A stretch of DNA of 40,240 nucleotides, taken from Clostridia bacterium. Its GTDB lineage: Bacteria; Bacillota; Clostridia; Oscillospirales; RGIG577. The stretch lies in assembly GCA_017513095.1 (NCBI GenBank), contig JAFWDJ010000027.1, forward strand, positions 1-40,240, written 5' to 3'. Below, one piece after another: positions 4,469 to 17,114 of the stretch. The position numbers were made by a program, and so were the translations under genes. The notes beneath the pieces were generated by a model. The model worked only from the letters and a program-made list of their open reading frames with translations, was not told the DNA's origin and did not search any database. The stretch's first letter is position 1; every line of letters starts with the position of its first letter.

Positions 4469-5092
4469 TTAATTATTATTAAATATTTCCGCCAGCGCCT
4501 CGCGTATATCCCCGTATTCATGACCGCTTCGGAGTAAATACGCGAAGAACTTATCATAATCCATATCCTTTTCGCTTCGCACCGTTTTAAGCTTCTTTTT
4601 TGAAAGCGCAAGTGCGAGCGCCGCCATATCCTCCGGCGCGGCCCTGTCCGCCGCAGCCTGTGCCGTGTCGCGGTCCACGCCCTTTTTTATAAGCTCCATC
4701 ACCACGCGCCGCCTGCCGCAGAGCTTTTTTGTATAGAGATAATAAGCGTACTTTTCGGCGTATGCCTCGTCGCTTATCACGCCCTCTTCCGACAGCTCTC
4801 CGACCGCCGCGCGGGCGGTCTCCTCATCAAATCCCGCGTGCATGAGCCTCTCGGTCATCGCCTGCTTCGACTTGTCGGCGTAATCGAGAAGGGAAAGCGC
4901 CTTCCTTTTCGCCGCGCGCAAGTTCTCTGCGCGCAAAAGGCGCGAAATCATCTCATCGCCCAGCTCCCCTCCGAGGGACAGTCCCGCCTCGTCCCATACC
5001 TCGCGGCTTACGCCCAGCACGAATTTTCCGTCGGCAAATATGTTCCTTCTGTTCGGATCGCCCTTCTGGGGCTCTACTGCCGTTATTATCAT
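4469..5092 (-). CDS. recX: Recombination regulatory protein RecX
   Basis: A 207-residue, largely helical protein built of three-helix RecX repeats, for example ALSLLDYADKSKQAMTERL and AYAEKYAYYLYTKK. RecX modulates RecA filaments. The gene starts 12 nt after the recA stop, the usual recA-recX arrangement, so RecX is co-expressed with its target. No unusual feature is seen. Confidence 0.92.
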   Translation of the reverse strand: MIITAVEPQKGDPNRRNIFADGKFVLGVSREVWDEAGLSLGGELGDEMISRLLRAENLRAAKRKALSLLDYADKSKQAMTERLMHAGFDEETARAAVGELSEEGVISDEAYAEKYAYYLYTKKLCGRRRVVMELIKKGVDRDTAQAAADRAAPEDMAALALALSKKKLKTVRSEKDMDYDKFFAYLLRSGHEYGDIREALAEIFNNN

Positions 5093-5104
5093 GGCCCGGG
5101 CGCC

Positions 5105-6187
5105 TTATTCGTCGTCGTCCGCCGAAACGTCGATTGACGCGGGCGCGCCCTTCGGGGCTGCCGCCTTCTTCGCGCCCTTCTTTTGCGACGAGATATTCTT
5201 TAATGCCTCGGGGTCGGACATTACCTTCTGTTCAATTTCGGCGTAAAGCTCGGGATTGCTCTTTATATACTCCTTCGCGTTGTCGCGGCCCTGACCGAGC
5301 CGCAGCTCCCCGTAGGAGTACCACGAGCCGCCCTTTGCTATTATGCCCAGCTTCTCCGCGATATCTAAAAGCTCGCCCTCGCGCGATATGCCCTTGCCGT
5401 ATATCATATCGAACTCCGCCTCGCGGTAGGGCGCCGATATCTTGCTCTTTACCACCTTTACCCTCGTGCGGTTGCCTATTACCTCGCTGCCGCTCTTTAT
5501 CTGCTCTCCGCGGCGCACCTCAAGGCGCACCGACGAATAGAATTTAAGAGCCATACCGCCCGTCGTCACCTCGGGATTGCCGTACATAACGCCTATCTTC
5601 TGACGAAGCTGATTTATGAAAATCACGGCCACATTGGCCTTGCTTATATATCCCGCAAGCTTCTTTAATGCCTGAGACATCATGCGCGCGTGGCGTCCCA
5701 CGTGCGTATCGCCCATATCGCCGTCAAGCTCCGCGCTCGATACGAGCGCGGCCACGGAGTCTATGACTATCGCGTCTATCGCGTTCGAGCGCACGAGCGC
5801 CTCAACTATCTCGAACGCCTGTTCGCCGCTGTCGGGCTGGGCTATGAGCAGCGAATCCATGTCTATGCCTATCGCCGCCGCGTATTCGGGGTCGAGCGCG
5901 TGCTCCGCGTCGATGAAAGCAACGATGCCGCCCTGCTTCTGCGCCGAGGCGAGTATGTGAAGCGCCACCGTCGTTTTGCCCGACGATTCGGGGCCGTATA
6001 TCTCGGTTATGCGTCCGCGCGGTATGCCGCCGCGCCCGAGCGCCAGGTCTATCGTAAGCGAGCCGGTCGGAATTACCTCAACGTCCTCCACGCGGTCCTC
6101 GCTCATCTTTATTACCGTGCCCTTGCCGTACGTCTTGTCAAGCTGGCTTATCACCGTATCAAGTACCTTCTGCTTATTAGGATCCAT
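5105..6187 (-). CDS. recA: Recombinase RecA
   Basis: The DNA strand-exchange ATPase and SOS co-protease. Walker A is GPESSGKT at residues 65-72, Walker B is [10 protein letters not shown], and the C-terminus is acidic (ADDDE). I use the conserved start MDPNKQK at 6187 (360 residues), preceded by GGGG. Another in-frame ATG at 6220 overlaps the prmC stop as ATGA and would add 11 residues; translational coupling from there is possible. No SOS box is evident directly upstream because the gene is internal to an operon (DUF1385-prmC-recA-recX-rimO-pgsA). Confidence 0.98.
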
Positions 6188-9531: not shown

Positions 9532-9623
9532 GGAGAAGTACTCAAGTAGGCCGAAGAGGCGCCCCTGCTAAGGGTGTAGGTCGGGAAACCGGCGCGGGGG
9601 TTCAAATCCCCCCTTCTCCGCCA
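9532..9623 (+). tRNA. tRNA-Ser (anticodon GCU)
   Basis: The acceptor is GGAGAAG/CTTCTCC with G and encoded CCA. The anticodon arm CGCCC-CTGCTAA-GGGTG gives GCT. There is a long variable arm and a T-arm GGGGG-TTCAAAT-CCCCC. Confidence 0.97.
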
Positions 9624-10073: not shown

Positions 10074-10814
10074 ATGAAACACATACTTCCCCGCATCTGC
10101 GGCCTCATATGCCTATGCCTCATCCTGTCCGCGCTCTGCTCCTGCTCGCTTACATCCCGCGGCCGCGTGCCCGCGGAGGTAAAGCTCGACGGCGTAACCT
10201 ACAAAACGGGCTTCTACGGAGACCTCTGGCCCGAAGGCTTCGAGGAAACGGGAGACGCCGTAAAGGTCAGAGGCATAGAATACCACCGGGTCAAGAGCGA
10301 CGAATACGACCTTATACACAGCTTCGCGGGCAAAAGGTCGTGCGGCGTAATATACTGCCGAAGCGACCAATACGACGACGCCGAGCGCTTTTATAACAAC
10401 CCCGAAAACTTCGTCTATTACTGCCGCATAAAGAATCCCGACAAATGGACCGACGTAAAGCTTCGCGGCTTCGACGCCGAAACGTTCGACGCGCTTTCGG
10501 CCTTCTGCGCAGAGAACGAATACGACCCGCTCGACAAAAAGCACAACGAAAAAATCGAAACGGTCGAGCTTCCCATGCCCGACTTCGATAAAACGCCCGA
10601 GCTCGTCTTTTTTTGCGTCTCCACGGACGGCCGCTTCGAGTCGTATCAGGGATACGAAATACTCGCCTCGGGCGATCGTCTGTACTTTTTGTTCTACTAC
10701 GACTTCGGTCACGGCGAAAACGAAAAAATGCTCGCCGTCCCCGTCCCCGCCGAGTTCGAAGCGTATCTTTTCGACGTATTGAAGGAAAACGGCATCGAGT
10801 ATGCGTATGAGTGA
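10074..10814 (+). CDS. Predicted lipoprotein, unknown function
   Basis: 246 residues. A basic N-terminus and hydrophobic stretch (ICGLICLCLILSALCSC) end in a lipobox-like L-C-S-C, so it is probably membrane-anchored outside the cell. The mature part is acidic, rich in Tyr/Phe/Asp, with no family I recognise. The start at 10074 is chosen over 10068 because AAGGAG ends 7 nt upstream. The long frame that continues upstream through the hairpin repeat is not coding. It follows the tandem repeat directly, so those structures would lie in its 5' leader if transcription reads through. Confidence 0.75.
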   Translation: MKHILPRICGLICLCLILSALCSCSLTSRGRVPAEVKLDGVTYKTGFYGDLWPEGFEETGDAVKVRGIEYHRVKSDEYDLIHSFAGKRSCGVIYCRSDQYDDAERFYNNPENFVYYCRIKNPDKWTDVKLRGFDAETFDALSAFCAENEYDPLDKKHNEKIETVELPMPDFDKTPELVFFCVSTDGRFESYQGYEILASGDRLYFLFYYDFGHGENEKMLAVPVPAEFEAYLFDVLKENGIEYAYE

Positions 10815-10862
10815 GGACGCGTCTTCCCCGTTTATATCCCCGCGCCGCGGCCCAAATAAAAC

Positions 10863-10890
10863 AAAAAGCCACCCGAAACCGGGTGGCTTT
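10863..10890. terminator. Bidirectional terminator
   Basis: Stem GCCACCCG/CGGGTGGC with A-run on one side and T-run on the other, between convergent genes (lipoprotein and serine hydrolase). Confidence 0.8.
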
Positions 10891-10903
10891 ATCGTTATTC
10901 GGC

Positions 10904-12082
10904 TTAAAGCGCCGCGTATACCGCGTTAACAATGCGCGGATGGGTATACCAATCGAGATTTTTATCGTTAGGCAGGCACTGATGCGCATAAACTATCGCA
11001 AGCTTATTTGCGGGGTCCGCGAGAGTCTTCGTTCCCGCCATGCCGGACCAGCCAAAAGCGCAAGGCGCGTATACGCCCGCCGCCGCGGGATCTATTATCA
11101 TGCTCACGCCGAGCCCGAATCCGTGTCCCTTAAGCTGCGGCCAGCGATACAGCGTATTGTGAAGGCCTTGCGTCTGCTCCCACGTAAGATGATTCTGCCT
11201 CATCAGGTCTATGGTATTCTTTCCGAGTATCCTCACGCCGTCTAAAGTGCCGCCGTTTGCGAGCATGCTCATGAGCTTCGCGTAATCGCCCGCCGTTGAG
11301 ATAAGGCCCTGACCGCCCATATCGCATATGAAGCGCGGATCGTAGAAGGCGTCGGCGCGGCTCTGATATCTTTTGAGCTCCCCGTTCTCCCTGTTGTAGA
11401 TCGCGCAGAGCCTGTCCTTCTGATCGCCTTTGAAGGAGAACGACGTCTCCTCCATGCCGAGAGGACCCGTTATTTCGTCTTTTATGAACTGCCCCAGCGT
11501 CTTTCCCGACCACACCTCGACGAGCCTGCCCAAAAGGTCTACGCTCAGTCCGTAATGGAAGCGCGTTCCGGGCTCGTATAAAAGCGGCACTTCCTTTGCG
11601 ATGGCCTTCATGAGCTGCTCGAGCGTATAGGGCCCGCCGGCCATAAGGCCGCCCTGCACCTCCAAAAGCTTCTGCTGGGTCATATTGAGCTTTCCCGCGT
11701 ACGTAAGTCCGGTGGTATGGCAGAAGCAGTCGCGCACCTTTAAAACGTTCTTCGCCGGGCGCAGCGTCTCTATAATGCCGTTGTCCTCATACGCCGCCAC
11801 CTTAAGCTCGGAGAACTCCGGCAGATACGCCGCCACCGGATCGTCCAGAAGATAAACGCCCCGCTCATATAATATGAGCGCCGCCACTGCGGTCATCACC
11901 TTGGAATCGGAAAACATCCTGAAAACCGTATCCGGGCCTGTGGGCCGCCCCGCTTCAACGTCGGCCATGCCCTCGTAATGCTCAAAGACCTTCTTCCCCT
12001 CGACCGTCACCGTTATCGCGTTCCCGGCCGGCCCCGTTTCCGTCAGCCGCTTCATCAGTTCGCGAACGTTCTTAAAATCCAT
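10904..12082 (-). CDS. Serine hydrolase of the beta-lactamase/transpeptidase-like family
   Basis: A 392-residue class C beta-lactamase-like fold protein. The catalytic SxxK is Ser58-Asp-Ser-Lys61 (RMFSDSKVMTAVAAL). The second motif is the Tyr177 region (FHYGLSVDLLG). Conserved CHTTGL and GGQGLISTAGDYAKLM segments are typical of the EstB/esterase branch. There is no signal peptide, so a cytoplasmic esterase or peptidase is more likely than antibiotic resistance. Its substrate is unknown. It is a single gene, convergent with the lipoprotein. Confidence 0.88.
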   Translation of the reverse strand: MDFKNVRELMKRLTETGPAGNAITVTVEGKKVFEHYEGMADVEAGRPTGPDTVFRMFSDSKVMTAVAALILYERGVYLLDDPVAAYLPEFSELKVAAYEDNGIIETLRPAKNVLKVRDCFCHTTGLTYAGKLNMTQQKLLEVQGGLMAGGPYTLEQLMKAIAKEVPLLYEPGTRFHYGLSVDLLGRLVEVWSGKTLGQFIKDEITGPLGMEETSFSFKGDQKDRLCAIYNRENGELKRYQSRADAFYDPRFICDMGGQGLISTAGDYAKLMSMLANGGTLDGVRILGKNTIDLMRQNHLTWEQTQGLHNTLYRWPQLKGHGFGLGVSMIIDPAAAGVYAPCAFGWSGMAGTKTLADPANKLAIVYAHQCLPNDKNLDWYTHPRIVNAVYAAL

Positions 12083-12287
12083 AACTCTCCTCCTCTTGTC
12101 GCTTAAATGCCTTTTTCTTTTATTTTAGCGTATTATTGATGGAATTGAAAGTTTTTTATGAATTCCCGCGGGATTTTTTTCGGGGATTGTCAAACGGCGA
12201 ACGCCGCGCCCAGCGTTTTGGGGCGGATGCGGGCCTTCGGTCGGCTCGTTTCATGCATATGCGACGGAGATTGCAGTATAACATTTC

Positions 12288-12316
12288 TTGCATATCATAT
12301 TTTTCCATGATATAAT
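12288..12316 (+). promoter_or_regulatory. Promoter of the TnpB-like nuclease gene
   Basis: TTGCAT (12288-12293), a 17-nt spacer and a perfect TATAAT (12311-12316). AAGGAGGGG lies a few nt before the ATG at 12346. The gene is thus independently and probably constitutively expressed. The rest of 12083-12287 holds no gene I can support. Confidence 0.75.
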
Positions 12317-12345
12317 TTAAGCATACTACAAAAAGGAGGGGTTTT

Positions 12346-13893
12346 ATGGCAAAAAAATCAACGACCGACACCTGCTGTCTTACGCTTCCGCTTATCGTTG
12401 AAAAGTGGCAGTCCGACCGCCTTGAGAAAAGATTTGAGATCGCCAGACAGATTTATAATGCGCTTTTGAATTATGAACTGAAAAAGCTCCGCCGATTGGA
12501 ACAAAGCGAAGATTATAAAAAAACGGAAGCCGAGATAACTCGTCTGCTTAACGAACCGGAAAAGAACCGCAAACTGCTGAAACAGGCATACAAGAAAAGA
12601 GACGACTTACGGGAAAAAGCTAAATTTTCCGAGTATTGTTTTAAATCCGATATACAGCGCTTCTATAAGCATTTTAATGACAACATCGGCTCCAACGTTG
12701 CCATTCACGGCATTGCTCCTCAGGTTTGGGCCGCTTTTGAAAAAATGTTTTACGGCAACGGCAAGGCGGTGCATTTTAAACGGCGCGGGGATATCCGTTC
12801 CGTAAGAGGCTATTCCAATTCCAGAAAGAGCGGCGGCGTTGAGATAATGTTTCGCAAAACGGAAACGGGAGCATATATAGAATGGAAGAAGCTTTATATA
12901 CCCGTAAAAACCGACCGTGACAATGAATACGAAACCGAAATGCTTAAAAACCGCATAAAATACTGCCGTATAGTCAAGCGCCCCGGCAAACGAAAGAGCC
13001 GATGGTACGTCCAGCTTTCCCTTGAGGGAAAACCGACAGTCAAGCGAAACAAGCTTACGGGTGAAATCCTTCACCCCGTCGGCAAAGGCGCAGTCGGCAT
13101 CGACATCGGCCCTCAGACCATCGCATACGCTGCGGATAAAGAGCTCGTACTCACGGAGCTTGCCGACAAGGTCAAAAATATCGAACGCGAAAAACGAATA
13201 CTCCAGCGCAAAATGGACAGAAGCCGGCGCAGCACCAATCCCGATAATTTCACACAAGACGGAATGATAAAGCGCGGCGTTAAGCTTAAATGGAACGAAT
13301 CAAAGCATTATCTGAAATACCGTCGGCAGCTTGCCTTTCTCCAGCACATGCAGGCGGAGACGAGAAAACGGCAGCATATCGAGCTTGCAAATAAAATGAT
13401 GGCTCTCGGAGACGTATTTTACGTTGAAGATATGGCATGGCCTTCTCTGACACGCAGGGCCAAAAAAACAGAAATATCGGAAAAGACGGGCAGATATAAG
13501 AAAAAGAAACGCTTCGGCAAGTCTGTCGGAAACAAGGCTCCCGCCATGCTTATCGGAATATTAAATCAAAAGCTGCTTTCCCGCGGCATGGCGGGAGTTA
13601 TAAAAGTCCCCACCACACTTCGCGCGAGCCAGTATAATCATATTACAAACGACTATCAGAAAAAAGAATTAAGCGAACGCTGGAATGTAATGCCGGACGG
13701 CAGAAAGCTCCAAAGAGATATGTATTCGGCATTCTTATTACAGCATACGAACACAGAATTAAACGGTTTCAACCTTGAATCGCTTAACCGCGATTATGAA
13801 AATTTCGTTTTTCTTCACGACAACGCAATACAAAAGCTTCGTTCCGCACCGAAAACGCCCGCCAGCATGGGCATAGCGCGAAAGAGAAGCTGA
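12346..13893 (+). CDS. TnpB/Cas12-like RuvC RNA-guided nuclease, CRISPR-associated
   Basis: 515 residues. The RuvC-like triad is intact: Asp253 in AVGIDIGPQTIAY, Glu361 in GDVFYVEDM, and Asp458 in LQRDMYSAFL. A basic helical N-terminal half with an OTCas12/TnpB-like wedge precedes it (VAIHGIAPQVWAAFEKM, HFKRRGDI, YVQLSLEGKP). The stretch aligned with the TnpB zinc ribbon (residues 424-458: RASQYNH...LSERWNVMPDGRK) lacks all four Cys, with MPDG replacing CPxCG. It is larger than a standard ~400-residue TnpB and close to compact Cas12 size. There is no TnpA and no Cas1/Cas2/Cas4. A structured RNA region and a CRISPR array follow on the same strand. I infer an RNA-guided dsDNA nuclease of type V-U character. 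The alternative is an IS605-type TnpB beside an unrelated repeat array. Confidence 0.88.
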   Translation: MAKKSTTDTCCLTLPLIVEKWQSDRLEKRFEIARQIYNALLNYELKKLRRLEQSEDYKKTEAEITRLLNEPEKNRKLLKQAYKKRDDLREKAKFSEYCFKSDIQRFYKHFNDNIGSNVAIHGIAPQVWAAFEKMFYGNGKAVHFKRRGDIRSVRGYSNSRKSGGVEIMFRKTETGAYIEWKKLYIPVKTDRDNEYETEMLKNRIKYCRIVKRPGKRKSRWYVQLSLEGKPTVKRNKLTGEILHPVGKGAVGIDIGPQTIAYAADKELVLTELADKVKNIEREKRILQRKMDRSRRSTNPDNFTQDGMIKRGVKLKWNESKHYLKYRRQLAFLQHMQAETRKRQHIELANKMMALGDVFYVEDMAWPSLTRRAKKTEISEKTGRYKKKKRFGKSVGNKAPAMLIGILNQKLLSRGMAGVIKVPTTLRASQYNHITNDYQKKELSERWNVMPDGRKLQRDMYSAFLLQHTNTELNGFNLESLNRDYENFVFLHDNAIQKLRSAPKTPASMGIARKRS

Positions 13894-14088
13894 CAGAAAA
13901 CATCAATGAGGTTCGCACCTCTTATCCGGTCGATTGCCCGACCGAGGCTGTCGCCAATGGCGCCATAGGGCGCTTTGACAGCAGAAGAGCAAGGGAAAAT
14001 AGTCAGCGCGGACTGATGTCCGAAAAGCTATCTACCTGCTCACAGCGATGTGCATAAAATGCGTGTACTGTTTTAGGTTGTTTTTGCC
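13894..14088 (+). ncRNA. Candidate tracrRNA/omegaRNA-like scaffold RNA
   Basis: A non-coding gap between the nuclease stop and the first repeat, dense in hairpins. These are GAGGT-TCGC-ACCTC (13908-13921), CGGTCG/CGACCG (13927-13944), and GCTGTC/GACAGC (13947-13982) enclosing GCGCC-ATAG-GGCGC. Further ones are GGAC-TGAT-GTCC (14010-14021), CACA-GCGA-TGTG (14041-14052) and GCAT-AAA-ATGC (14052-14062). The segment CAGCG-A-TGTGC (14043-14053) is complementary to GCACACGCTG of the repeat, giving 10 pairs with one bulged A: a plausible anti-repeat. TnpB omegaRNAs and Cas12f tracrRNAs lie in this position. The ends are not determined. Confidence 0.7.
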
Positions 14089-14390
14089 GACGCGGCCCGC
14101 ACGGCACACGCTGAGGCAAAGCAGCGCTACGTTGCCGAGGGCAATAACTTCATTACGACGCGGCCCGCACGGCACACGCTGAGGCAAAGCCCTTTGTTGA
14201 TATAATTGCAAGCCCACTTAATCGACGCGGCCCGCACGGCACACGCTGAGGCAAAGACGGGGGACATACGCGGCGGCGAGCCGTTACGCGGACGCGGCCC
14301 GCACGGCACACGCTGAGGCAAAGGCAGTTGGAGAAGCCTATCGTGCGGTCGTCGCCGGACGCGGCCCGCACGGCACACGCTGAGGCAAAG
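14089..14390 (+). CRISPR. CRISPR array, 5 repeats / 4 spacers
   Basis: Five identical 33-bp repeats start at 14089, 14157, 14224, 14291 and 14358. Each begins GACGCGGCCCGC and ends CTGAGGCAAAG. Spacers at 14122-14156, 14190-14223, 14257-14290 and 14324-14357 are 35, 34, 34 and 34 bp, with no resemblance to one another. Spacer 2 is AT-rich and the others are GC-rich. Invariant repeats with regular unique spacers are diagnostic of CRISPR. Plus-strand orientation is inferred from the nuclease, scaffold and anti-repeat order. No obvious AT-rich leader is seen except ACTGTTTTAGGTTGTTTTTG just before repeat 1. Confidence 0.9.
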
Positions 14391-14398
14391 CCTCAGCG
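14378..14398 (+). other. Perfect hairpin capping the array
   Basis: CGCTGAGG at the end of repeat 5, CAAAG loop, then CCTCAGCG outside the array. The 3' flank thus carries an inverted 8-9 nt piece of the repeat. It may fold the last repeat or act as a second anti-repeat if transcribed. Confidence 0.6.
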
Positions 14399-14399
14399 A

Positions 14400-14424
14400 C
14401 GGAATCCGGGGGATTTGAACCCCC
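14400..14424 (-). other. tRNA 3'-end-like remnant (T-arm plus acceptor strand)
   Basis: On the minus strand GGGGG-TTCAAAT-CCCCC (14424-14408) is a perfect T-arm, followed by a 7-nt acceptor strand GGATTCC and G. No D-arm or anticodon arm precedes it, so this is a fragment. tRNA 3' ends are classical integration sites, so it may be one end of a past integration. Confidence 0.5.
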
Positions 14425-14443
14425 ACACCAAAGCCCACCCCAT

Positions 14444-14480
14444 ACACAAAAAAGGCCGAACGTTCCCGTTCGGCCTTTCT
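14444..14480. repeat. 37-bp direct repeat with embedded terminator, copy 1
   Basis: Identical to 16433-16469. It contains the near-palindrome AAAGGCCGAACG-TTCC-CGTTCGGCCTTT, a terminator usable on either strand. The two copies bracket the HD/YwgA gene pair. Confidence 0.85.
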
Positions 14481-14500
14481 AAAATGTGATTGTGCAAAAA

Positions 14501-15010
14501 TTATGCAATGGAATTTTTTAGGTATCCGTACTGTCTCAATTTTTTTATTGCAGTGCAAATACTATCGACTTCGTATTTTTCTCCTTTAATTTTTTTTACT
14601 CCGTCTATTATTTCTTTTTCGTTATTATGATAATTAGATACATACAATGCAGTTGTTATCAGTTCAAGCTCACTAGGCGTTTCTTTGCCAAATGCGCTAA
14701 TTATTTCTTTTATTATTCTATCAATTTTCTCATCGCCAGAGCCTGTGACATCCTTGTCGTTAATCACTCTTATTTTATGCCCTGTTCGCGTATAGTCTAT
14801 TGCCAAAACGCCTTCATCACAAAGTTCTCGCACCGCAAAATCCAGATCCGAACTATACGGTCCATATAGATGAATGCCATAATCATATCCAAGGCTGATA
14901 TCCTTTGCCTCTATCAAATAAACAATTTTTTGCAAAGTTTTCTTACAAGGTGCACCATTATAGTCTGTTATCTGTTTTACTATACTCGCAATCGCGCCGT
15001 TATTTGCCAT
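14501..15010 (-). CDS. YwgA-like protein (SocA/Panacea-related fold)
   Basis: 169 residues. The N-terminal KTLQKIVYLIEAKDISLGYDY-type helix and the GPYSSDLDFAVRELCDEG segment match the YwgA family. That family is related to Panacea/SocA-like domains and in Bacillus is encoded beside an HD phosphohydrolase (YwfO), as here. The start at 15010 (MANNGAIAS) has AGGAGGG 6 nt upstream. An ATG 10 codons earlier lacks one and would overlap the HD gene. The gene is markedly AT-rich compared with the surroundings, suggesting transfer. The function of the pair is unknown; regulation of the HD enzyme is a reasonable guess. Confidence 0.8.
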   Translation of the reverse strand: MANNGAIASIVKQITDYNGAPCKKTLQKIVYLIEAKDISLGYDYGIHLYGPYSSDLDFAVRELCDEGVLAIDYTRTGHKIRVINDKDVTGSGDEKIDRIIKEIISAFGKETPSELELITTALYVSNYHNNEKEIIDGVKKIKGEKYEVDSICTAIKKLRQYGYLKNSIA

Positions 15011-15036
15011 AATAATCCCTCCTAAACATCGTAACT

Positions 15037-16341
15037 TCAATCTTCTGACGTTGCTAAAAAATCATTAATATTATCTATTGCCTCTTTGGATATCTCACGA
15101 CTAGCATATATTCTGCTGATACCTATCGGGTTTACGAGCGATGCAAGTATTACTGATTCCTCCATCAAATTCCCGACCTCCCCGGTTTTTTCTTCAACTA
15201 TCATTATACCTTTTCCGCTATCATCGTCGCGATTACCAACAAACGGAGTTAGTTTATGTGCGGCTTTATCGACACTGTCGTACATTACCTTATCGTTATA
15301 AATCTTTTCAAGATGGTTATATATTAACTTAATATTACGTTTTTCAAACTTTTCTCCATGAGCCTTTGACTCTTTAATACAAGTCATGACCTTTCGGTTT
15401 TTAAAATCAATGACTTGAGGCTCATTAGATTGCGAAATAAGATTAAGTACACGCACGTCATCCCATTTTACAAATTCATTTTCATCTTTTGGATATTTGC
15501 CACTCGGTAAAATAGTTTTTAAGCAACTTACTAACGCCTTATCTAAGTATCTTCTAGTCTTATGGAAATACACTTGAATAAACATAAAATAACGCGCTAA
15601 GATAAACTCTTCTAAAGCTTGAATACCTCCCCTTTCTATTGCAAGTTGTAGTGTATGTTCTTTTTTATAAGGCACCAAAGTGGAAACAAAGCGGTTCAAA
15701 TCATATTTTCCATAAGTAACTCCACAATAAAGAGAATCTCTTAAAAGATAATCCATCTTATCGCAATCCAATTCTCCATCCATAAAACTCCGCAAAAAGA
15801 AGAAGTCCGGAATAATAAACTTTTCATTTGTGATTTCTGTTCCCTCGTAAATCATCCAAATTAATTCAGGGGTTATGTCGTAAATATCTCCATATTTTAA
15901 TTTGAATTGTTTGCCAATATCCCTTATGTAATCCCCTATTTCCGTATTAAAAATAATACTTCTAGTATAATCTTCATGTTTGACTCCGTTTTCAAGCAGT
16001 TCCTCCGATGCATGTGAAAACGGAGCATGTCCCAAATCATGTGTAAGGCCTATTATGCGTAATATCTGACGATACCATGCCGTTTTGCACATATTCTCAT
16101 TATCATCATCAGAGAATAACTTAGTAGTTTTACTTGTAACCGCATCGAAAACACGAGATGTTAAATGCATAACTCCAAGTGAATGCCCAAAACGCGTATG
16201 CTCTGCTCCATGATATACCAAATATGTAGTTCCCAGTTGGTGAATATTTCTTAACCGTTGGAACGGTAGGGAATTAATAATTTTTAGTTCATCCTCAGAT
16301 ACTTCTATAAAACCGTGTACTGGATCCCTAAATTGGAACAT
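15037..16341 (-). CDS. HD-domain phosphohydrolase, YwfO/dNTPase-like
   Basis: 434 residues. The N-terminal FRDPVHGFIEVSEDELKII and LRNIHQLGTTYLVYHGAEH lead into the HD core: HTRFGHSLG, THDLGHAPFSHASEELL (the HD metal site), and the distal DKMDYLLRDSLYCGV with the last metal-ligand Asp. This layout is that of SAMHD1/dGTPase-related YwfO proteins, so dNTP hydrolysis is expected but unproven. It is AT-rich, 26 nt upstream of the ywgA-like gene, and flanked by 37-bp direct repeats. Such HD enzymes sometimes serve phage defence by nucleotide depletion; that is speculation here. Confidence 0.85.
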   Translation of the reverse strand: MFQFRDPVHGFIEVSEDELKIINSLPFQRLRNIHQLGTTYLVYHGAEHTRFGHSLGVMHLTSRVFDAVTSKTTKLFSDDDNENMCKTAWYRQILRIIGLTHDLGHAPFSHASEELLENGVKHEDYTRSIIFNTEIGDYIRDIGKQFKLKYGDIYDITPELIWMIYEGTEITNEKFIIPDFFFLRSFMDGELDCDKMDYLLRDSLYCGVTYGKYDLNRFVSTLVPYKKEHTLQLAIERGGIQALEEFILARYFMFIQVYFHKTRRYLDKALVSCLKTILPSGKYPKDENEFVKWDDVRVLNLISQSNEPQVIDFKNRKVMTCIKESKAHGEKFEKRNIKLIYNHLEKIYNDKVMYDSVDKAAHKLTPFVGNRDDDSGKGIMIVEEKTGEVGNLMEESVILASLVNPIGISRIYASREISKEAIDNINDFLATSED

Positions 16342-16432
16342 AAATAGTACTCCTGTTTCAAAAAATATAACTTTTCACAATATATATTATCAGAATAGAT
16401 TATCAATAACAATCCCTTTAAATACATTTTAC

Positions 16433-16469
16433 ACACAAAAAAGGCCGAACGTTCCCGTTCGGCCTTTCT
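16433..16469. repeat. 37-bp direct repeat with embedded terminator, copy 2
   Basis: Same sequence as 14444-14480. Here it directly follows the prophage amidase gene and serves as its terminator (GGCCGAACG-TTCC-CGTTCGGCC then T-run). It ends the long late operon. Confidence 0.85.
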
Positions 16470-17114
16470 TCACCCCATATTCCTCATCCGCCACATCATC
16501 GTGACGGCTTCTTCTCTCGTAACGGCCTCCCGAAGCCGCAGCGCACCGTTCTCGTCTCCCCTTAGTATCCCGTGCTCCACGGCCCACGAAACGGCCTCGC
16601 GCGCCCAATCCGACGGCGGCGCGTCCTTTTTCGCGTCGGCGGGATCGTCCGCCGCCTTTGATAAAATCCTCGCCTTCAGCACCTGCCACTCGTCCTCGTG
16701 CGAAACGTACCAGAGCGGACAGCGCTTGCCCGTCACGTCGTAATGCCTGAGAACGTCGGCGCAGCCGAAGCGCGCCGAAAGACTGCGGCAAAGCCACACG
16801 ACGCGCTCAAGCGTCGCGTCCGTTATCCTGCCGGACGCGTCCGGATGGCACATCTCTATCTGTATATACCGCCCGTTATAATACCCGTCCGACGTGCCGT
16901 ACGACTTCATGTCCGGCGGAATTATCTCGATTATCTCTCTGTCGTCGACAACGTAATTTACGCTCACGCGCTGATTCACGTTATGAAAATAATTCGCGTT
17001 CGCGGCCGCCGACGTGCCGGGATTGCCCACGTAGTGAAGTATTATCCCCACGGGCGACATCGCCTCACACGGATTGTTTATCCTCTTTTGTATGTGCCGC
17101 TTAATTATCTCCAT
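16470..17114 (-). CDS. Phage endolysin: N-acetylmuramoyl-L-alanine amidase with SLH-like tail
   Basis: 214 residues. The Amidase_2 fold has zinc ligands in the IILHYVG region and in HYDVTGKRCPL, the usual His and Cys/His ligands. It cleaves the muramoyl-alanine bond in peptidoglycan. Residues ~170-214 (REAVSWAVEHGIL...LRLREAVTREEAVTMMWRM) resemble one SLH module, likely for cell-wall attachment. It overlaps the holin gene by 14 nt and is the last gene of the prophage late operon. Confidence 0.92.
   Translation of the reverse strand: MEIIKRHIQKRINNPCEAMSPVGIILHYVGNPGTSAAANANYFHNVNQRVSVNYVVDDREIIEIIPPDMKSYGTSDGYYNGRYIQIEMCHPDASGRITDATLERVVWLCRSLSARFGCADVLRHYDVTGKRCPLWYVSHEDEWQVLKARILSKAADDPADAKKDAPPSDWAREAVSWAVEHGILRGDENGALRLREAVTREEAVTMMWRMRNMG

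Follow-up and report, generated by a model that had tools for sequence, protein, structure and literature searches.

How tracrRNAs originate is a standing question, and it is raised directly by a locus in which a repeat array lies just downstream of the gene for a small, TnpB-like nuclease: what does the sequence between the two encode? In the window (the whole 40,240-nt stretch of DNA that was analysed), the earlier note had placed a gap of 195 nt after the nuclease stop codon (TGA), and it lies there, at 13894–14088, followed by five identical 33-nt repeats and four unique spacers of 34–35 nt each. From comparative analysis, the gap very probably encodes the tracrRNA of the adjoining miniature Cas12, derived from an omegaRNA whose terminal hairpin was split into an anti-repeat and a repeat. 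The features referred to below are as follows.

12346–13893, + strand: TnpB-like Cas12 nuclease, 515 aa (PADLOC, NCBIfam, alignment, residue check)
13876–13921, + strand: probable tracrRNA 5′ end (GCGAA in the last ORF codons pairing with TTCGC after the stop; hairpin 13908–13921)
13926–14043, + strand: predicted tracrRNA core of six helices, homologous to TnpB omegaRNA (model R1, covariation)
13934–13938, + strand: stem-1 loop TTGCC, predicted pseudoknot with GGCAA at the 3′ end of every repeat (14115–14119 in repeat 1)
13987–14041, + strand: helix 4, the closing stem GAGC(A)AGG / CCT-GCTC that encloses two inner helices
14043–14053, + strand: predicted anti-repeat block A, CAGCG-A-TGTGC, pairing with repeat nt 16–25
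14059–14081, + strand: predicted anti-repeat block B, pairing with the 5′ end of the repeat
14081–14088, + strand: TTTTTGCC, immediately 5′ of repeat 1 (its TTTGC invariant in 11 aligned loci)
14089–14121, + strand: repeat 1, 33 nt
14157–14189, + strand: repeat 2
14224–14256, + strand: repeat 3
14291–14323, + strand: repeat 4
14324–14357, + strand: spacer 4, matching Sak4-type recombinase genes of gut phages at 29–30 of 34 bases
14358–14390, + strand: repeat 5, the last
14444–14480, + strand: palindromic terminator-like sequence 3′ of the array, recognized by its sequence (identical copy at 16433–16469)

The best PADLOC profile for the nuclease was Cas12u4 (E 4.9e-8, 30 bits), followed by Cas12f (E 1.5e-6), and the NCBIfam model guided_TnpB scored 63.4 bits, which is sub-threshold at the model cut-off of 100. 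Alignment and a residue check show that the RuvC triad (D253, E361, D458) is intact; the same check over the whole 515-aa protein found no zinc-ribbon CxxC. The sole PDB match to the family profile was 9j09 (24 bits, E 1.4e-4), given as RdCas12n–sgRNA–DNA in the part of PMC12776560 that identifies it. A predicted structure of the nuclease was set aside, having been computed from a 7-sequence input with a mean pLDDT of 50.8 and a pTM of 0.27.

The proposed anti-repeat CAGCG-A-TGTGC is found at exactly 14043–14053 and its partner GCACACGCTG at exactly 14104–14113; all coordinates in the earlier note agree with ours to within one base, the anti-repeat ending 35 nt before repeat 1 (14089). The many hairpins noted in the gap are also borne out, with six helices in the comparative core alone and a further hairpin at 13908–13921. 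Complementarity in the window sequence by itself proves nothing, because among 1000 dinucleotide-shuffled versions of the gap, 635 reached the energy of its best duplex with the repeat (−27.8 kcal/mol). A search of Rfam over 10500–17000 returned nothing near a gathering score, and the gap was absent from the 15 weak matches (E ≤ 5). The 5′ GCGAA/TTCGC pairing comprises 5 bp in the window and 7–9 bp in seven of the 12 loci examined, the window being one of the 12.

Scanning genome contigs turned up six relatives of the nuclease at 51–68% identity. Searches by taxon found matches in 8 genomes out of 394 for the order and in 6 out of 391 for the class (the window's own genome counted in both), and IMG/VR provided 61 relatives at 30–45% identity. 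Outside the array-bearing clade, the nearest relatives are TnpBs, whose identity reaches about 46%. Arrays accompany the nuclease in the window and in L002, L003, L006, L007, L008, L011 (9 repeats), L012 (18 repeats) and L055, with repeats of 32–33 nt at a spacing of 65–68 nt in the eight loci other than the window (in L055 by inspection); the sequence of L005 ends just past repeat 1. L009 and L004 have one repeat each, which makes a one-piece guide plausible for both. At L009:3274–3365 the repeat is followed by a stretch of guide length and then by a terminator-like hairpin, making this unit a candidate natural single-guide RNA; the gene downstream resembles what we take to be a uronate isomerase. 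The contig of L004 ends about 220 nt beyond its repeat, so its array may have been cut or displaced.

Ten cores, the window's included, were aligned and used to build a covariance model, R1. In this alignment, 95.9% of cells in the six helices are paired, compared with 35–45% for slid control structures, and double-sided changes affect 14 of 34 pairs, where shuffles give 6.3 (sd 1.6; 0/500). Helices 2 and 5 are nearly invariant and so contribute little information; in helix 4, both sides have changed in four of seven pairs. The window, a training member, scores 132.2 bits. The model was then run on 57 sources, of which 10 were the training set and 47 were not, a search that took in 38 of the 61 viral loci. 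Matches were obtained in 30 of the 47 non-training sources at E ≤ 10, 29 of them at E ≤ 0.01, and in 29 of 44 TnpB-type loci (28 at E ≤ 0.01), every one on the sense strand; L010, L012 and L055, as array-clade members, were kept out of this 44-locus count. The match begins 9–28 nt past the tnpB stop in 27 of the 29 TnpB-type loci, the ORF end of the other two (L013 and L105) probably being premature, and many matches stop immediately 5′ of the terminal hairpin in front of the guide. R1 gave no match in 15 of the 44 TnpB loci, nor in L012 and L055, which bear arrays. The RNA core is retained in L010 (64.7 bits), where no array was seen. With stricter filters (E ≤ 1e-6), R1 matched in 5 of 394 genomes of the order, each time directly 3′ of the nuclease. 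In the window, a pattern search found no canonical omegaRNA-type terminal hairpin after the core, and the array stands there instead. The reading that fits the gap best is a tracrRNA with an omegaRNA ancestor.

The contacts between the predicted tracrRNA and the repeat were examined by swap tests, which ask whether each tracrRNA suits its own repeat better than the repeats of other loci; the permutations ignore relatedness, so the counts given here are not exact probabilities. For the last 75 nt of the tracrRNA in 11 loci, the mean energy with the own repeat was −26.6, compared with −22.1 (sd 1.03) for permuted pairs, a difference reached in 0 of 10,000 permutations. Block A alone gave 44/20,000 (56/20,000 in the 8 closest members only) and block B alone 14/20,000, weakening to 913/20,000 in the 8 closest members, while the remainder of the tracrRNA, used as a control, gave 13,753/20,000. 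Block B is weak in the window and its register there ambiguous, since either ATGCGTG (14059–14065) or GGTTGT (14076–14081) could pair; in most relatives the register is clear. The anti-repeat at 14043–14053 on the + strand is thus at chance level in the window alone and is upheld by conservation, covariation and omegaRNA homology; a lack of conservation or covariation in relatives, which the earlier note had named as evidence against it, was looked for and is not what the relatives show.

Block B and the pseudoknot are contacts absent from the earlier note, and the TTGCC/GGCAA pseudoknot is the best supported of the predicted tracrRNA–repeat contacts. It uses repeat nt 27–31, that is, positions −7 to −3 from the guide. 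Across 12 array-clade members, the pseudoknot score was 11.60 for own and 9.42 for permuted pairs (1/20,000), and seven loci picked for distinct sequences gave 25/20,000. Among the 29 R1-matched TnpB-type loci, 24 entered the corresponding test; L056 and L081 were dropped, the hairpin-end pattern not being found in them, and the 22 TnpB omegaRNAs scored 12.20 for own and 8.85 for permuted pairs (0/20,000). Compensatory changes are seen in L008 (TCGTC/GGCGA), L011 (TTGAACC/GGTTCGG) and L012 (GGCA/TGCC), mutually different and on separate branches of the tree. In the omegaRNA of ISDra2, as set out in the structural passages of PMC10097598, bases −5 to −3 form a pseudoknot with −103 to −105, inside the span of stem 1, in comparison with −7 to −3 for the pairing in the window.

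A further candidate contact, between TTTTTGCC and GGCAAAG of the repeat, was convincing by eye and was rejected: own pairs were no better than swapped ones (8,546/20,000 for the last 60 nt, 11,441/20,000 for the last 14 nt), the two are not complementary in L011 and L012, and the stem-1 loop is the supported partner instead. Separately, TTTGC before repeat 1 is kept even without complementarity to the repeat end and could be a leader or an integration anchor.

The suggestion that block A pairs with repeat 1 within one transcript has the right geometry, and the pairing is present in the minimum-energy fold of 13894–14121; it disappears from the fold that includes the ORF end. The suggested switch, in which the segment folds on itself as CACA-GCGA-TGTG, does not stand up to comparison: by inspection, only the window has all 4 bp of the hairpin, no compensatory change was seen in the 10 other loci, and L004 and L007 could form 3-bp remnants (ACA/TGT).

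In a 46-row protein tree (14 partial or near-duplicate proteins left out), the array-bearing, one-repeat and decayed rows group together (99/98) against 34 TnpBs, with L055 counted as array-bearing. When five divergent outgroup rows were added (9 proteins left out on the same grounds), the TnpB-like L014 and L099, both on a long branch, fell inside the array clade, requiring two label changes instead of one, so a single origin of the clade is not proven.

Several members are of interest in their own right. In L006 (gene at 340–1896), each of the three catalytic RuvC positions carries a substitution (D to V, E to K, D to I), and the protein is, as predicted from these changes, a natural nuclease-dead version. 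Repeats of the same type lie on both sides of this gene, in array units at 1–225 and 5079–5426, the latter about 3 kb 3′ of the gene and the only one with a complete tracr core; by eye, the contig is plasmid-like. L055:2501–4540, an array member carried by a viral contig of 90.7 kb, has repeats of two types within one array. Spacers 8 and 10 of L012 are identical.

Spacer 4 of the window matches, at 29–30 of its 34 bases, recombinase genes of the Faecalibacterium phages FP_Taranis and Pioen (annotated as hypothetical in Pioen) and of two faecal phage scaffolds, with a best E of 2e-3 for a 352-base query; the true target may be another phage, because the recombinase gene is conserved among phages. 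The 5′ flanks of these matches end in CGCTC, TTCTC or CTCTC, compared with 5′-AAN for Cas12n, the matches being homologous genes and not proven targets. No exact match to 21–23-mers of all four spacers was found in IMG/VR, no phage match for the arrays of five other members, no convincing self-target of the array in its own genome, and only matches at E ≥ 0.3 in a plasmid search with the array. The guide of L009, searched against its own genome with the locus set aside, gave only 3-mismatch matches to 18 nt.

Cas1 was not detected in the window's own genome (97.7% complete), which leaves spacer acquisition unexplained. It is present somewhere in the genome for eight of 10 relatives, G071 and G341 being without it, and arrays of 18 (L012, in G341) and 5 repeats (G000) occur in genomes without detectable Cas1. 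An adaptation module is carried by only a subset of type V subtypes, according to the relevant part of PMC12669027, and thus does not strictly define the type.

On one side of the locus are host genes, and on the other is a prophage of the contractile-tail type (with portal, terminase, sheath, baseplate, amidase and CI genes). L055 is on a viral contig, and so is L047, which has a 100-nt probe and the repeat pattern in common with L011. The nuclease is absent from the same-genus genomes G001 and G002. Comparison with them for an empty site gave no clean insertion edge: the homologous stretch breaks off at 12082 or 12058, and in G002 it picks up again at 16500 on a different contig. Beyond the array, a gene pair on the − strand (14501–16341) encodes one protein that resembles the DarG C terminus (E 1.9e-11) and another that is HD/dGTPase-like (E 2e-11). 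The pair, likely a defence or toxin–antitoxin cassette, lies between the two 37-nt terminator-like copies at 14444 and 16433, which are identical. After the last repeat, 17 nt (14408–14424) are identical, on the reverse strand, to part of tRNA-Ser (9532–9623), a tRNA-like remnant that is perhaps an attachment site.

We propose that a TnpB omegaRNA would have become the tracrRNA with its stem core kept and its terminal hairpin, which precedes the guide, opened at the loop. The 5′ arm of the hairpin would have been retained in the tracrRNA as anti-repeat blocks A and B, and the 3′ arm, together with the pseudoknot strand, would have become the 33-nt repeat, amplified to a small array. Three contacts would hold tracrRNA and crRNA together: the pseudoknot (repeat nt 27–31), block A (nt 16–25) and block B (the repeat 5′ end). 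The transcript, likely ending at the palindrome at 14444–14480 (a + strand terminator scan made no call there), would be processed, likely by RNase III, and the dual guide would steer the RuvC nuclease to spacer-matching DNA for cleavage. Repeat 1, downstream on the same strand, could pair in cis, giving a possible natural, omegaRNA-like single guide of tracrRNA, repeat 1 and spacer 1.

Such an RNA might instead act mainly as a one-piece, omegaRNA-like guide formed with repeat 1 and spacer 1, the later repeats being little used, and the cis pairing in the minimum-energy fold, the single repeats of L009 and L004 and the use of such guides by TnpB relatives (described in part of PMC10097598) speak for it. 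We consider this improbable, given the five perfectly kept repeats in the window and up to 18 in L012, the retention of all tracr-pairing segments in repeats 2–5, the phage match, which belongs to spacer 4 and not to spacer 1, and the position of L004 near a contig end. That the locus is no more than a TnpB element of the usual IS605 type, with incidental tandem repeats and an RNA that is an omegaRNA only, is very unlikely: the protein and the RNA core are indeed homologous to TnpB and omegaRNA, but the canonical terminal hairpin was not found after the core, the repeats are complementary to the tracrRNA and covary with it, and the array, one-repeat and decayed members lie on one side of the 99/98 branch. 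It would be still more surprising if the conserved gap were a regulatory or leader region of the nuclease gene, such as a terminator or attenuator, and no guide component; the apparent overlap of the RNA with the ORF end and the conservation of TTTGC beyond its complementarity would suit that explanation, and the covarying repeat pairing and omegaRNA homology count against it.

Among the closest known systems, TnpB–omegaRNA of IS200/IS605 elements (ISDra2 structure, PMC10097598) shares with the window the core stems, the site right after the ORF, the pseudoknot between the stem-1 loop and a guide-proximal segment, and the RuvC residues; in the window, unlike in TnpB–omegaRNA, the short-loop terminal hairpin is split into anti-repeat and repeat and a spacer array follows. 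The ISDra2 study describes its omegaRNA as a natural sgRNA in which a UUUA tetraloop connects a crRNA-like part to a tracrRNA-like one, proposes that tracrRNA–crRNA pairs originated by splitting, and notes no sequence similarity between the guide RNAs of TnpB, Cas12f and Cas12a, to which a pseudoknot is common (PMC10097598). Cas12n (type V-N, former V-U4), in the part of PMC11641405 devoted to it, likewise has about 500 aa, is TnpB-like and carries its tracrRNA within the effector mRNA, although its similarity to the window protein is remote (24 bits with the family profile, E 1.4e-4; 30 bits with Cas12u4). Cas12f (type V-F) is also a miniature effector, with a tracrRNA containing pseudoknot-type and stem-type repeat:anti-repeat segments (in the passages of PMC10097598 on guide RNAs), and its profile similarity to the window nuclease is weak. 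About 50 independent TnpB-to-CRISPR events have been counted, many kept as V-U variants, in the portion of PMC12669027 on their origins.

The clade is a clear instance of omegaRNA splitting, an idea already published. The origin of tracrRNAs by this route has reportedly been shown experimentally as well. Jin et al. 2025 reportedly describe TranCs as transposon–CRISPR intermediates, with functional RNA splitting as the claim of the title, and these are said to be nucleases derived from TnpB whose guide RNA has separated into a tracrRNA and a crRNA, one of the nucleases coming from a gut Lawsonibacter. A search of the literature on TranC, TnpBs with an array or tracrRNA, and gut clostridia gave, among the papers listed, no account of the present clade, with the two most relevant papers (Jin et al. 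2025 among them) outside its reach, and the clade may already be catalogued, perhaps among the TranCs. More tentatively, and with considerable doubt on our part, the clade could preserve, at sequence level and with live intermediates, every stage between omegaRNA and dual guide: a pseudoknot and core shared with TnpB omegaRNAs, natural single guides with one repeat (L009 and perhaps L004) and arrays whose repeats number 5–18, which would grow and travel without a Cas1 of their own via phages and prophages, repeat 1 still acting in cis beside trans-acting crRNAs.

For the question of where tracrRNAs come from, a single covariance model here links tracrRNA with omegaRNA, and covariation in the pseudoknot is found before the transition as well as after it. 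The splitting hypothesis is thereby open to exact swaps, in which a tetraloop closing the tracrRNA to the repeat would restore an omegaRNA, or a TnpB omegaRNA would be opened at its loop. The 515-aa nuclease family, with its predicted and defined dual guide, may also offer a small editing tool.
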